A stretch of DNA of 64,000 bases, taken from contig NC_092122.1 in the NCBI RefSeq assembly GCF_045679555.1, positions 16,717,565-16,781,564 on the forward strand. Reading direction: 5' to 3'. The notes under the pieces were generated by a model that was not told the DNA's origin, did not search any database, and worked only from the letters and a program-made list of their open reading frames with translations. Of this stretch, positions 45,001 to 51,000 are shown one piece after another (the stretch's first letter is position 1; every line of letters begins with the position of its first letter). The position numbers were made by a program, and so were the translations under genes. This stretch comes from Salvelinus alpinus. Its lineage: Eukaryota > Chordata > Actinopteri > Salmoniformes > Salmonidae.

Positions 45001-48000
45001 GATCAACACGTGACCATTCAAAACAGTAAACAATATGACAAAATCATGACTCATGAAGTATGCAATCAGTAACCATAGCTACTAACTTACACTGAAGAAA
45101 CATGCATACCCTACTGTCACAAACTCTTATGAAATAATTATGACAGCCTCTGTCAAGTCAAATGTTATCTAAAGCAATCTGTGGTTAACACTACATGCTA
45201 ATGTCTCCGTCTTGTCTAGATAGGCCCTGGTTCTGTGTAAAGGAGGTGATCGATGGGCCATCCCCAGAATGACAGCTTCTCTCTGGACCTTTCCCAGCCA
45301 GACGTCTGGGTCTGGGACACAGAACCTAAGGCAATGGCGGGTGAGTGAATCACATACGTTGAGGTGACACACTCATATAAATCAAGTGCTATATTTCCAC
45401 GTGAAAATGGCCTAGAATGCACCTTGGAGTATTGCTCCATTGTTTGTGTTGGTTAATTCATTCTTCTTGGTTAAACTGAATTGAAATTGTTGACTTACAG
45501 TACAGTATTATATGTATTATATGTAGTGTAATGAATACCTGATCCAAAGTATGTTGAAGTTAAATCTCTCTATCATAAATTGCTCACCATAAAAGATGAA
45601 CGACAGGGACATTTCTGAGAGTGGTTTCCATTAGCCCCGAAGACAATGTCTGAATTTGCAGTGCAATCAATAATTGAAAAACGAAGAACTTCAGCTATTT
45701 TAATATGAGTCAGTCTGGCAGCGCACTCACCGCCTGAGATTTGGAAGTCACCAAGCTCTCTGAGAAGAATAGAAGATACATTACACAACTTGTATTTCTC
45801 ATTTGAACTATCTGGAAAATAGAGAGGACTGGTAGTATGGATTAGTGTTTGGGCAGTTTACAGTCCGGTATCTACAGTGTATTAAAGCCATAGTTCATGC
45901 CTATTGTTCAATTGTGCACATTTCTGGAAAACAGATGGAAGAGGACTGGTGTGGAAGAGTAAATTTGATTTTTAATCTTATATGACCTGTTACACAGGTC
46001 ATCCTGCTCCTCGTCTTGTCTTTAAGGTTGTTCTGTTCCCTGATATGTAATATAATCAGTCTGTTTTAGAACTGTTTCTAAACTGGCCTGTTCTAATTTC
46101 CTGTCAATCTTTCATGGTTCTTGTTATCCAAGGATGTGTGGGGGAGTGGCGATGTCCTTGAAATGATTGGTCTTTCTCAAGGTCTACTATCTGTGGTGAT
46201 AAGCAGAAGTACCGGACTCATTTGAAGGGCATGTGAAACACCCCATCCATCCTTGGTCTGTATAAAATGTCTGTGGAGAACAAATAGCGAGTCAAATTGG
46301 TTTTCCCTTGCATGCATACTCGTAATAAAGCTTTTTTTACATTGAGATTGGACTGCCTTTGAGTGGTTTTTCCACCACACTGGTTACAGTCTACAGCGTC
46401 TGTATGGTTACTTTGCTATATGTTGCAAAATGCTTGGCCCTGGCCATTAGGAGCTCTTGTCCACATGTGCTAGGCCTAATCTGGGTCCATTTCCCCAGGG
46501 ACATTTTGGATAAACTGTAGACATGTGATCATCCCTTCCTCCACATCAGTCTACCAGCTTTGCTCTCTTCCTTTATTTCACTCACTCTTTCTCTCCCTAA
46601 CTCTTTTTCCCCACCTGTCTTCTCACACAGCCGCCCAGATCTTCATTTGGCTAGCGCTTCTGTTGGCCTTTGGCCTGCAGTTCTACCTAGCTGTGTTCTG
46701 CCTGCTGAAGTGCTGGAGTTTTGACACGAGGCTAAAGCAGGCTCTTAAAAACCTGCCCTCTACAGGGAAGCTCCTCACAACAGGTAGGCCTATTCCAGGG
46801 ATGTTGCCTTGACACAGTGTAGTGATCCATGAACTGACCAAGGCAAATACAGTGGGGAGAACAAGTATTTGATACACTGCCGATTTTGCAGGTTTTCCTA
46901 CTTACAAAGCATGTAGAGGTCTGTAATTTTTATCATAGGTACACTTCAACTGTGAGAGACGGAATCTAAAACAAAAATCCAGAAAATCACATTGTATGAT
47001 TTTTAAATAATTCATTTGCATTTTATTGCATGACATAAGTATTTGATCACCTACCAACCAGTAAGAATTCTGGCTCTCACAGACCTGTTAGTTTTTCTTT
47101 AAGAAGCCCTCCTGTTCTCCACTCATTACCTGTATTAACTGCACCTGTTTGAACTCGTTACCTGTATAAAAGACACCTGTCCACACACAATCAAACAGAT
47201 TCCAACCTCTCCACAATGGCCAAGACCAGAGAGCTGTGTAAGGACATCAGGGATAAAATTGTAGACCTGCACAAGGCTGGGATGGGCTACAGGACAATAG
47301 GCAAGCAGCTTGGTGAGAAGGAAACAACTGTTGGCGCAATTATTAGAAAATGGAAGAAGTTCAAGATGACGGTCAATCACCCTCGGTCTGGGGCTCCATG
47401 CAGGATTTCACCTCGTGGGGCATCAATGATCATGAGGAAGGTGAGGGATCAGCCCAGAACTACACGGCAGGACCTGGTCAATGACCTGAAGAGAGCTGGG
47501 ACCACAGTCTCAAAGAAAACCATTAGTAACACACTACGCCGTCATGGATTAAAATCCTGCAGTGCACGCAAGGTCCCCCTGCTTAAGCCAGTGCATGTTC
47601 AGGCCTGTCTGAAGTTTGCCAATGACCATCTGGATGATCCAGAGGAGGAATGGGAGAAGGTCATGTGGTCTGATGAGACAAAAATAGAGCTTTTTGGTCT
47701 AACTCCACTCGCCGTGTTTGGAGGAAGAAGAAGTATGAGTACAACCCCAAGAACACCATCCCAACCGTGAAGCATGGAGGTGGAAACATCATTCTTTGGG
47801 GATGCTTTTCTGCAAAGGGGACAGGACGACTGCACCGTATTGAGGGGAGGATGGATGGGGCCATGTATTGCGAGATCTTGGCCAACAACCTCCTTCCCTC
47901 AGTAAGAGCATTGAAGATGGGTCGTGGCTGGGTCTTCCAGCATGACAACGACACGAAGCACACAGCCATGGCAACTAAGGAGTGGCTCCGTAAGAAGCAT

Positions 48001-51000
48001 CTCAAGGTCCTGGAGTGGCCTAGCCAGTCTCCAGACCTGAACCCAATAGAAAATCTTTGGAGGGAGCTGAAAGTCCGTATTGCCCAGCGACAGCCCCGAA
48101 ACCTGAAGGATCTGGAGAAGATCTGTAGGGAGGAGTGGGCCAAAATCCCTGCTGCAGTGTGTGCAAACCTAGTCAAGAACTACAGGAAACGTATGATCTC
48201 TGTAATTGCAAACAAAGGTTTCTGTACCAAATATTAAGTTCTGCTTTTCTGATGTATCAAATACTTATGTCATGCAATAAAATGCAAATTAATTACTTAA
48301 AAATCATACAATGTGATTTTCTGGATTTTTGTTTTAGATTCCTTCTCTCACAGTTGAAGTGTACCTATGATAAAAATTACAGACCTCTACATGCTTTGTA
48401 AGTAGGAAAACCTGCAAAATCGTCAGTGTATCAAATACTTGTTCTCCCCACTGTATGTAGTTTGACAAAAACTTTCATTTTTGTTTTATCAAATCCACTG
48501 AACACTTTCGATCTCACTATATTCTGAAATCAAAAGTTAAGCATTTGACTAAACAGGAGGCAATGTTAATAACACATGTATTCTATATGTTTCAGTCCCT
48601 TCCACCATCATTCAACTTCCAGAGGACTTGAAGAGTGTGAAACCACCGGCTTACTGTCGTTATGAAGTAGTGGCTGAATCCTCCCTGCCTAGACCCTGCT
48701 GCTATGACGATGAGGAGGCTGGGCCCTGCACTAACTCTCCCTATACACCTTTTGCCTGGGATCTTGTGCAATGCTGAGGAGGACCCTGTAACACTTCACT
48801 GTAAATACTGTAAAAACTTAAATATAGTGTGCATGGAATGCTGACCCATTAAACTGTTGAGTGAGTTAATTCTTAAACTTTATTTTACAATAAAATGAGA
48901 TTTGTTTTAAATTGAACCTATAATATTTATACTAAATGATAACTCACCCCACACAGCCATGAATACAGCAAAGAAAACTGTTGCTCCGTTGTCAAAAAGA
49001 TGGGTGACCTAAAGCCAAGAAACAGAGCAATTGCTTAGAGAAATGATTTCAGAAAACATGAATTCAGTACAAACACACACAGTAGTCACATTTGTATATA
49101 AAGATTACAAAGGAGGGCTGTTCGTTAGACATTTTCCAGAGCAAGCTCAAAAAGTAGTCCCGTGTAGCTCAGTTGGTAGAGCATGACGTTTGAAACGCCA
49201 GGGTTGTGGGTTCGTTTCCCATGAGGGACCAGTATGAAAATGTATGCATTCACTACTGCAAGTCGCTCTGGATAAGAGCGTCTGCTAAATGACAAAAATC
49301 TAAAGTAAAAAGATTACCTTGCTAAATGTGTTATACTTATGTTACTGTGGCATAGCTCTGGAGTAAATGTTTGTCAAAAAAATGGCAATATTGTTTTAAA
49401 AAGTATAGGACAAAATCCCTGTTCCTGGAGAGCTGCAGTGTACGCAGGCTTTTGTTTCAGCCCAGCTCTAACGCAAAATAGCTGTGGTCTAATTTTATGA
49501 CCATCATTAGTTAATCATTTGAATCACACCCAGTGGCTCTCCAGGATCAGAATTAGCTACAACTGCCCTGATGTTTGTCAGCAGTGCTCAGTCTGGGGCA
49601 AACGTTTAACATACTCTACATGGTAGTACGGAAGTCACCTTGGCATAGATGCAGCTGTCTGAGAGTCTCAGGTAGGGGCAGTACTCGTCACATATGGGGC
49701 ACATGATGATGTCAGTGGCCTGGCAGATTTCTTTACTGGAGAATCACAGACAACTTTTAGCCTGGTTCCATTCACTCATCAATTCTTAATGCATTTATCA
49801 GCCTGTGTCAGTGCTGCCACACGACTAAGGCATTGATAGCATTGGTAATAGACTTCTACCAGACTAAGGCCAAATTTACACTAGTGTAAAGCATGCGTCT
49901 GTTTGGTATTTTTTCTAGTGGAAGAACACAAGACCAAACATAGTGAAGGATAAAATATGTATAAAATACTAAGGTAAAACAATGAGGTAAAACCTAATTG
50001 AAGAAGACCAATGAGTATTAGGTGAGCTCACATTACCTGACCTGGCAGTGGTCTAGGGTGAACCAGCCGTAGAGGAAGACCATGAGCCCAACCAGCGCCG
50101 CAGGGAACAGCATCCCAGTGTACCAACCCAGCCAGGCAAAATAGAGACCAATTTTCTCACCGAAGTACCGCCTGACAACACCGCCAGGAGACAAACGCCA
50201 ACAAACAGGTCATTATGTACCACCATTGCAATGATGTTGTGGCTTCATACGATTTTTAATGATCTAGTAAATTCACTCGTTCATTGATTAATTCATGTGG
50301 CTTTAATACATGTGGCTTGTGAAGTTGTATTGCTTGGAGGATCTAGGGACAACCTGCAAGGTGCAGATAATACATTGTATTAGACCTGTGATGTCCATAT
50401 AGAGCAGGAGTGTTAACACAGTGTTGTACCTTATGAGGTCCAGTGGCTGGTACTTGTACCACACACCCCACCAGGCCCAGCATTCATACAGCAAGTGTCT
50501 GTGGTTCTCTGCCCCATGCGTCCGGATGGAGTTCTTACTTCTGTAGCTCCCCTGTTCACACACACACGTAATGTACCATCATAACTACAGATGTAGGATC
50601 TTAATTTGATCACTCTTTTGTTGCTGACAGGAAATGCAAACTTGTAGTGTATTTGAGTTTTAAAAATGCTTCAAAATGTGTCATTTCCACTTTGAAATAT
50701 CAGACTTGATTTGCCCTAACGAAAAATGTCAATTAATTATAAACCACATAATAATTCACATTCCTGGTTGCCGCAGGATTATTTTCCTGCTGTAGCGAAC
50801 TGGCTCAAATGAAGATCCGACAAGTGATATTTCTCTTCCAAGCCAATGTGTGAAGTGTCAGTGCATTACCTCATGAAGGGGAAAAGCTGCCTCGTATGAA
50901 CTATTGCTCAAAAGACGATTCAGCCCTGGAGCATAAACAAGAACATGAAGACACCGTCAAACCCTCTACACACCAGAGACATGCTGTATCTCAAACGTGG

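Follow-up and report, generated by a model that had tools for sequence, protein, structure and literature searches.

A candidate small membrane-protein gene antisense in an ano4 intron of Salvelinus alpinus, with a second copy in the duplicated ano4

Gene model within the ano4 intron

The window, a 64,000-nucleotide stretch of Salvelinus alpinus contig NC_092122.1, carries ano4 on its minus strand and, within a single ano4 intron, three exons of a nested gene on the opposite strand. The features of the locus are as follows, in window coordinates.

42441..42530, minus strand: ano4 exon, counterpart of ANO3 exon 15, ends approximate
45253..45340, plus strand: coding exon 1, 88 nt, with the start codon, residues 1-29 and the first base of codon 30
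45268-45276, plus strand: NDS sequon in the N-terminal segment encoded by exon 1, predicted to lie outside
45341..46630, plus strand: intron 1, phase 1, GTGAGT..CACACAG
46631..46783, plus strand: coding exon 2, 153 nt, with the membrane helix and the juxtamembrane CLLKCW
46639-46707, plus strand: membrane helix, residues ~33-55, within exon 2
46784..48595, plus strand: intron 2, phase 1, GTAGGC..TTTCAG, 1812 nt here versus 224 nt in the second copy (contig C11)
46850..48453, plus strand: Tc1-like element in intron 2, window copy only, TA duplicated
48596..48777, plus strand: coding exon 3 to the stop TGA, 182 nt including the stop, predicted cytoplasmic tail
48643-48654, plus strand: PPAY in the predicted cytoplasmic tail; exon 3 also encodes CCYDDEE and the C-terminal FAWDLVQC
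48889..48894, plus strand: AATAAA polyadenylation signal
48946..49008, minus strand: ano4 exon (21 residues), counterpart of ANO3 exon 14, ends approximate
49639..49734, minus strand: ano4 exon (32 residues), counterpart of ANO3 exon 13

The ano4 exon at 48946..49008 forms the 5' side of the hosting intron (numbering inferred from that published for ANO3) and the exon at 42441..42530 its 3' side. When spliced, exons 1-3 encode a 140-residue product, and both introns are GT..AG introns of phase 1. A preliminary description of this DNA had proposed three exons with canonical splice sites joining into such a frame, antisense in ano4. The splice sites, phases and translation of the exons bore this out, and all three plus-strand exons lay within one intron of minus-strand ano4. 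A scan for first exons between 42500 and 46600 returned three candidates running from an ATG to a phase-1 GTRAG site. Only 45253..45340 was kept in frame in the C11 copy; the other two were rejected as alternative first exons. Over the gene area, Rfam and ARAGORN reported a SINE only.

The Tc1-like element has its transposase frame broken into 47153-47770 and 47677-48237. It lies within intron 2, clear of every splice site of the nested gene, and the frame and all four splice sites are indeed intact despite the insertion, as had been described.

Second copy and selection on the protein

The other ano4 gene of this genome, on contig C11, carries a second copy of the nested gene in which the ATG, three exons, four splice sites, frame, stop and AATAAA (110 nt beyond the stop) are all kept. 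This copy encodes 141 residues, the sole length change in the frame being one added codon in exon 3. Substitutions between the two copies numbered 10/88 in exon 1, 99/1192 in the aligning block of intron 1, 4/153 in exon 2 and 5/179 in exon 3. Such an intact second copy in the duplicated ano4 suggests a working gene rather than a chance reading frame. A genome search with the nested protein yielded six matches (11 candidates scored), exon by exon and at two loci only. When the search was extended to E 10, four matches were obtained (12 candidates scored), none outside the window locus and the C11 locus. Neither the many copies of a transposable element nor the intronless copy of a retrocopy was seen in these searches.

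The substitutions in exons 2 and 3 were distributed as expected of a selected protein. Codon positions 1 and 2 differed at 3/222 sites, compared to 772/13289 in the surrounding non-coding DNA (P = 0.0019), and position 3 differed at a non-coding-like 6/111 (P = 1.0); it is this constraint at positions 1 and 2 with a free position 3 that marks protein selection. The affected codons comprised five synonymous and four mild replacement changes (on 78.7 and 251.3 sites, respectively). Over the whole 423 nt, no frameshifting indel was observed, where 3.9 were expected at the surrounding non-coding rate (P of none = 0.021). For the absence of a stop, P was 0.39. The codon-usage score of the nested coding sequence was 0.18, compared to 0.16-0.39 for six ano4 exons and a mean of -0.23 (maximum 0.04) for 35 control ORFs hand-picked from a set of 66. 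In exon 2, one minus-strand frame outscored the true frame (0.193 versus 0.150).

Exon 1 behaved differently from exons 2 and 3. Neither the codon-position nor the substitution comparison with C11 showed purifying selection there, and seven codon changes were replacements and one was synonymous. The proposal that the gene is a decaying relic, which worked until the duplication and has since lost constraint in at least one copy, draws on this exon, whose divergence (11.4%) exceeds that of non-coding DNA (P = 0.037), and on the whole-CDS dN/dS between window and C11 copies, which is not far below 1 (0.65 by NG86, 0.98 by YN00 and 0.87 by ML). Just two copies, about 6% apart, are compared, so the power of all these comparisons is low, including that by codon position in exons 2 and 3. 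We regard such decay as improbable: neither copy has lost its open frame or its canonical splice sites, and exons 2 and 3 hold 4 amino-acid changes against 13.7 expected (P of 4 or fewer = 0.001).

About equally improbable is an antisense non-coding RNA or regulatory element whose frame is open by luck and whose low divergence reflects regulatory conservation. Exon 1, with no sign of protein constraint, would fit this, as would a control in which 74 of 397 overlapping non-coding windows were as little diverged as exons 2 and 3. Against it stand the placement of 6 of the 9 substitutions in these exons at codon position 3 (P = 0.042), the divergence of positions 1 and 2 below the non-coding rate, and the sole indel in the frame, which is three bases long. 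A second control also weighs against a coding gene, since 18 of the 66 intronic control ORFs of at least 50 codons were likewise intact in C11; both controls may include some unmasked ano4 exons.

Taken from sequence comparison, this is very probably a real three-exon protein-coding gene, antisense in an ano4 intron and kept in both ano4 copies. The view of it as a small single-pass membrane-protein gene is supported by its anatomy, the intact C11 copy and the constraint in exons 2 and 3, with none shown for exon 1.

Protein features and proposed function

The protein had been described as belonging to no recognisable family, and the searches agreed. A Pfam scan of both copies with hits reported to E 10 gave no family match above the cut-off, and PDB sequences gave hits of E 0.36 or worse, which were not taken as matches. 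The best Pfam hit of the window copy was a viral small membrane protein (E 0.047, helix only, below the cut-off) and that of the C11 copy was DUF3742 (E 0.73); these were dismissed along with the PDB hits. No relatives were confirmed in viral contigs or in a single scan of contigs from prokaryote genomes, where none were expected. In the open-licence literature, judged by titles and the starts of abstracts among the matches listed, no paper concerned an ANO4-nested gene or a small salmonid membrane protein.

A Kyte-Doolittle scan with a 19-residue window confirmed the single membrane helix, with a maximum of 2.41 from residue 37 and 0.60 for the next separate stretch. The tail (residues 56-140) had been called cysteine-rich and acidic. 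The first term holds, with 6 Cys in 85 residues. The second applies to the last 40 residues (2 K/R versus 7 D/E by hand count) but not to the whole tail, because this contains 9 K/R versus 10 D/E. The charge is -4 before the helix and +3 after it. The two copies agree exactly in PPAY (residues 97-100) and in the NDS sequon. Residues 1-31 contain no cysteine in the window copy and one in C11. A YxxPhi sorting signal, YEVV, was rejected because it is not kept in C11, which has YDVE.

These features suggest an N-out, C-in single-pass membrane protein lacking a signal peptide, with a short N-terminus that may be glycosylated and juxtamembrane cysteines that may be palmitoylated. The conserved PPAY of the predicted cytoplasmic tail could bind WW domains of NEDD4-family ubiquitin ligases, in which case the protein would be a small adaptor through which a membrane partner is sorted or degraded. 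On sequence grounds, the gene and an N-out adaptor-type protein are together somewhat favoured; the recruitment of NEDD4-type ligases by PPAY is put forward only tentatively. A PPxY appears in 4.8% of shuffled tails, so the WW mechanism rests on one motif.

Drosophila Commissureless, PRRG4 and CYYR1 are likewise short proteins with a single helix and a cytoplasmic PPxY. Commissureless and two PRRGs lack signal sequences according to the passage in PMC5578492, and CYYR1 binds the WW domains of WWP1 through PPxY according to that in PMC11399591. A single helix with a PPxY, cytoplasmic under the predicted topology, is present in the nested protein. In contrast to these proteins, it has no Gla domain, no cysteine-rich outer domain and no LPxY, and a single PPxY; a search for the outer domain of such adaptors (Gla, Shisa-type cysteines) or for homology found neither, with no Pfam match.

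A possible but less favoured mechanism for the same gene is that of an accessory subunit or membrane adaptor acting through helix-helix or tyrosine/cysteine contacts and not through WW domains. It shares the gene with the WW-adaptor reading and differs in mechanism only. The nested protein may resemble KCNE-type channel subunits or palmitoylated transmembrane adaptors: it has no signal peptide and a predicted N-out topology, an NDS sequon, CLLKC beside the helix and tyrosines in the tail, and its helix and tail are nearly invariant between the two copies. However, neither Pfam nor PDB gave a match to any such family, and YEVV of the window copy is replaced in C11.

Comparison with MUC15 in ANO3 and with other nested genes

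MUC15 is a single-pass membrane protein, a mucin of about 330 residues with a long ectodomain. It is an antisense guest of ANO3, the close paralogue of ANO4, as the nested gene is of ano4; the nested protein has no such length or ectodomain and no sequence match to it. The parallel drawn in the preliminary description stands as far as an antisense guest in a paralogous host is concerned. It is looser than was implied, since MUC15 lies one intron away by the published numbering and the two fish ano3 copies showed no conserved antisense coding block in either intron. The cited passage of PMC9074245 places an exonic MUC15 SNP in human ANO3 intron 13, and that of PMC4150528 places ANO3 R494W in exon 15, which makes the hosting ano4 intron the counterpart of ANO3 intron 14; the location rests on the numbering in these two papers.

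That the nested gene is the genome-duplication counterpart of MUC15 would account for antisense nesting of single-pass membrane-protein genes in neighbouring introns of paralogous hosts. We consider it highly improbable given the differing introns. The Mucin15 profile PF15672 was absent from the Pfam hits to E 10 of both copies, in line with the described lack of resemblance, and introns 13 and 14 of both ano3 copies (C6 and C9) contained no conserved antisense coding block. A whole-genome search with PF15672 was empty, but it is uninformative because its 14 control genomes were empty as well. Human MUC15, used as a weak genome probe, gave nothing significant (best E 2.0), and its last 120 residues, a similarly weak probe, gave nothing better than E 0.6 against two 80-kb ano3 regions. 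A fish muc15 may exist that these probes missed, since the cited passage of PMC5315281 reports a Muc15 transcript for sea trout. With the 140-residue protein, a very loose search of the ano3 regions gave E 1.2 at best on C9 and E 0.003 on C6 (31% identity, internal stop). The C6 match was rejected as a counterpart: it runs in the sense direction of ano3, and a comparable stretch found again beyond that intron (E 0.041) led us to take it for a repeat.

At present the evidence comes from a single genome and concerns a single small orphan protein of the membrane. If it is expressed, a gene for which no family was found would join a locus whose host belongs to a well-studied ion-channel/scramblase family, and this would suggest that the antisense guest of ANO4 differs from that of ANO3. 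It is conceivable, though speculative, that it represents an undescribed fish, perhaps vertebrate, family of N-out adaptors with a WW-binding tail, long kept antisense in ano4, inherited with its host through genome duplication and possibly co-regulated by antisense transcription. The two retained copies allow a test of whether the nested gene is kept for its own protein or rides in a needed host. LRRTM genes, which encode leucine-rich-repeat proteins of a known family, in contrast to the small, unplaced protein seen here in one genome only, offer a similar arrangement: according to the cited passage of PMC3933685, these vertebrate membrane-protein genes are nested in paralogous alpha-catenin hosts.

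Gene anatomy and the second copy

The three exons put forward in the preliminary description were confirmed in the window: they join into an open frame of 140 residues with intact splice sites, have no internal stop and end at TGA. Each of the two introns interrupts a codon after its first base; the donors are GTGAGT and GTAGGC, and the acceptors end in CACACAG and TTTCAG. The minus-strand host exons place the gene within one ano4 intron, which has exon [21 protein letters not shown] on its 5' side and exon [11 protein letters not shown] on its 3' side.

Features of the candidate gene (C11 is the contig of the same genome with the other ano4 copy)
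45253-45340, + strand: exon 1
46631-46783, + strand: exon 2
46850-48453: Tc1-like transposon with TA duplication, inverted ends and a broken transposase frame
48596-48777, + strand: exon 3, to the stop TGA
48889, + strand: AATAAA 3' of the stop
48946-49008, - strand: host ano4 exon adjoining the 3' end of the gene
C11 28973628-28970137, - strand: second copy of the gene, inside an ano4 copy (protein search)

Given the position of the AATAAA, the gene would stop shortly before the adjoining host exon. When the window's own genome (2.37 Gb) was searched with the protein, 11 candidates were scored, and all matches fell either in the window or at the C11 locus. The C11 copy keeps the ATG, the three exons, every GT/AG site, the phases and the stop, and its product has 141 residues, one codon more than in the window. 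We infer that the two loci arose from one another's common ancestor in the salmonid genome duplication.

Intron 2 is 1812 nt long in the window versus 224 nt in C11, and the Tc1-like element with its TA accounts for 1606 nt of this gap. The element is absent from the C11 copy; it therefore inserted after the copies separated and is younger than their split. It is confined to intron 2, which bears out the earlier remark that frame and splice sites survived its insertion. A tRNA-derived SINE with a UnaL2 LINE tail (tRNA + RF00436; called tRNA-Ser by ARAGORN) lies at 49157-49298. It occupies the same place in C11, with 131/140 positions identical, so its insertion probably predates the divergence of the two ano4 copies.

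Evidence for and against coding

Non-coding divergence between the window and C11 was 5.8% in the alignable surroundings (772 of about 13289 sites). Compared with this rate, exons 2-3 differed at fewer sites in codon positions 1 and 2 (3/222, P=0.0019), and codon position 3 was indistinguishable (6/111, P=1.0). The codon changes in these exons were the replacements I33V, A67V, E104D and S128A, one added codon and 5 synonymous changes. Neutral simulation at the surrounding rate predicted 13.7 changes in exons 2-3, only 0.1% of the runs giving no more than 4, and 3.9 frameshifting indels across the whole frame, where none was seen (P=0.021). Codon usage, scored with a human table, gave 0.18 for the gene and 0.16-0.39 in 6 ano4 exons, versus a mean of -0.23 and a maximum of 0.04 for 35 control ORFs hand-picked from 66 intronic ORFs of at least 50 codons.

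Other measures spoke against coding, and the closeness of the copies limits the power of their comparison. As many as 74 of 397 non-coding windows, which overlap and may include unmasked ano4 exons, were as conserved as exons 2-3, and 18 of the 66 control ORFs (possibly with unmasked ano4 exons among them) were intact in C11. Whole-CDS dN/dS was 0.65 (NG86), 0.87 (ML) or 0.98 (YN00), and one minus-strand frame of exon 2 had a higher codon score (0.193) than the gene's own frame (0.150). Exon 1 differed at 10/88 sites, above the non-coding rate (P=0.037), with 7 replacement codon changes and 1 synonymous. It is either a freely evolving outer segment or a weak part of the gene model; of the 3 candidate first exons in 42500-46600, only the one in use stays in frame in C11.

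Predicted protein

The single membrane helix described earlier was recovered at residues about 33-55. Together with a net charge of -4 N-terminal and +3 C-terminal of it, and an NDS sequon close to the start, the helix points to a predicted N-outside topology. The tail carries CLLKC adjoining the helix, PPAY (97-100), CCYDDEE and FAWDLVQC, identical in both copies. PPAY matches the PPxY ligand of WW domains, and through it the protein may bind NEDD4-type ligases, as do Commissureless and PRRG4 (PMC5578492) and CYYR1 (PMC11399591), all of them short and single-pass, via PPxY-type motifs. Because PPxY arises in 4.8% of shuffled tails, this putative WW-domain role is only a working hypothesis. 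The candidate has no Gla or cysteine-rich outer domain, and a Pfam scan of both copies gave no match; membership in their families was thus unsupported.

Relation to MUC15 and ano3

According to two papers, an exonic MUC15 SNP lies in ANO3 intron 13 (PMC9074245) and ANO3 R494W in exon 15 (PMC4150528). The fish exon [11 protein letters not shown] agrees with W490 and R494, which means that the gene occupies the counterpart of ANO3 intron 14 and MUC15 lies in intron 13, as far as the numbering of these papers holds. No conserved antisense coding block was seen when both introns were compared between the two ano3 copies of this genome (contigs C9 and C6). A loose search of these copies with the candidate protein gave a sense-strand stretch on C6 (E 0.003) that contains a stop and looks like a repeat, as it is also found outside that intron. 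Given the different introns and the missing antisense block in ano3, MUC15 and the candidate gene are most likely independent guests of their hosts. The suggested parallel with ANO3/MUC15 thus holds for antisense nesting in a paralogous host, but, by the papers' numbering, not for the intron, which is a neighbouring one, nor, most likely, for the origin of the guest. A muc15 is reported in sea trout (PMC5315281), and fish muc15 could have been missed by the weak probes used here.

Antisense nesting alone is ordinary: in vertebrates, overlap with another gene affects five to fourteen per cent of genes, and in most cases it is not conserved from one lineage to another (PMC2151771). The unusual feature is the unplaced protein.

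Near the counterpart of ano3 exon 15, a block conserved at 78% (C9 4454186-4454370, C6 8722061-8722240) has stops in the frames inspected and is probably a non-coding element. Elsewhere on C6, apart from the ano3 gene at 8.72 Mb, one ano exon has four more matches at about 5.49, 6.29 and 6.41 Mb; these share 71-73% identity with the ano4 query and are perhaps partial duplications.
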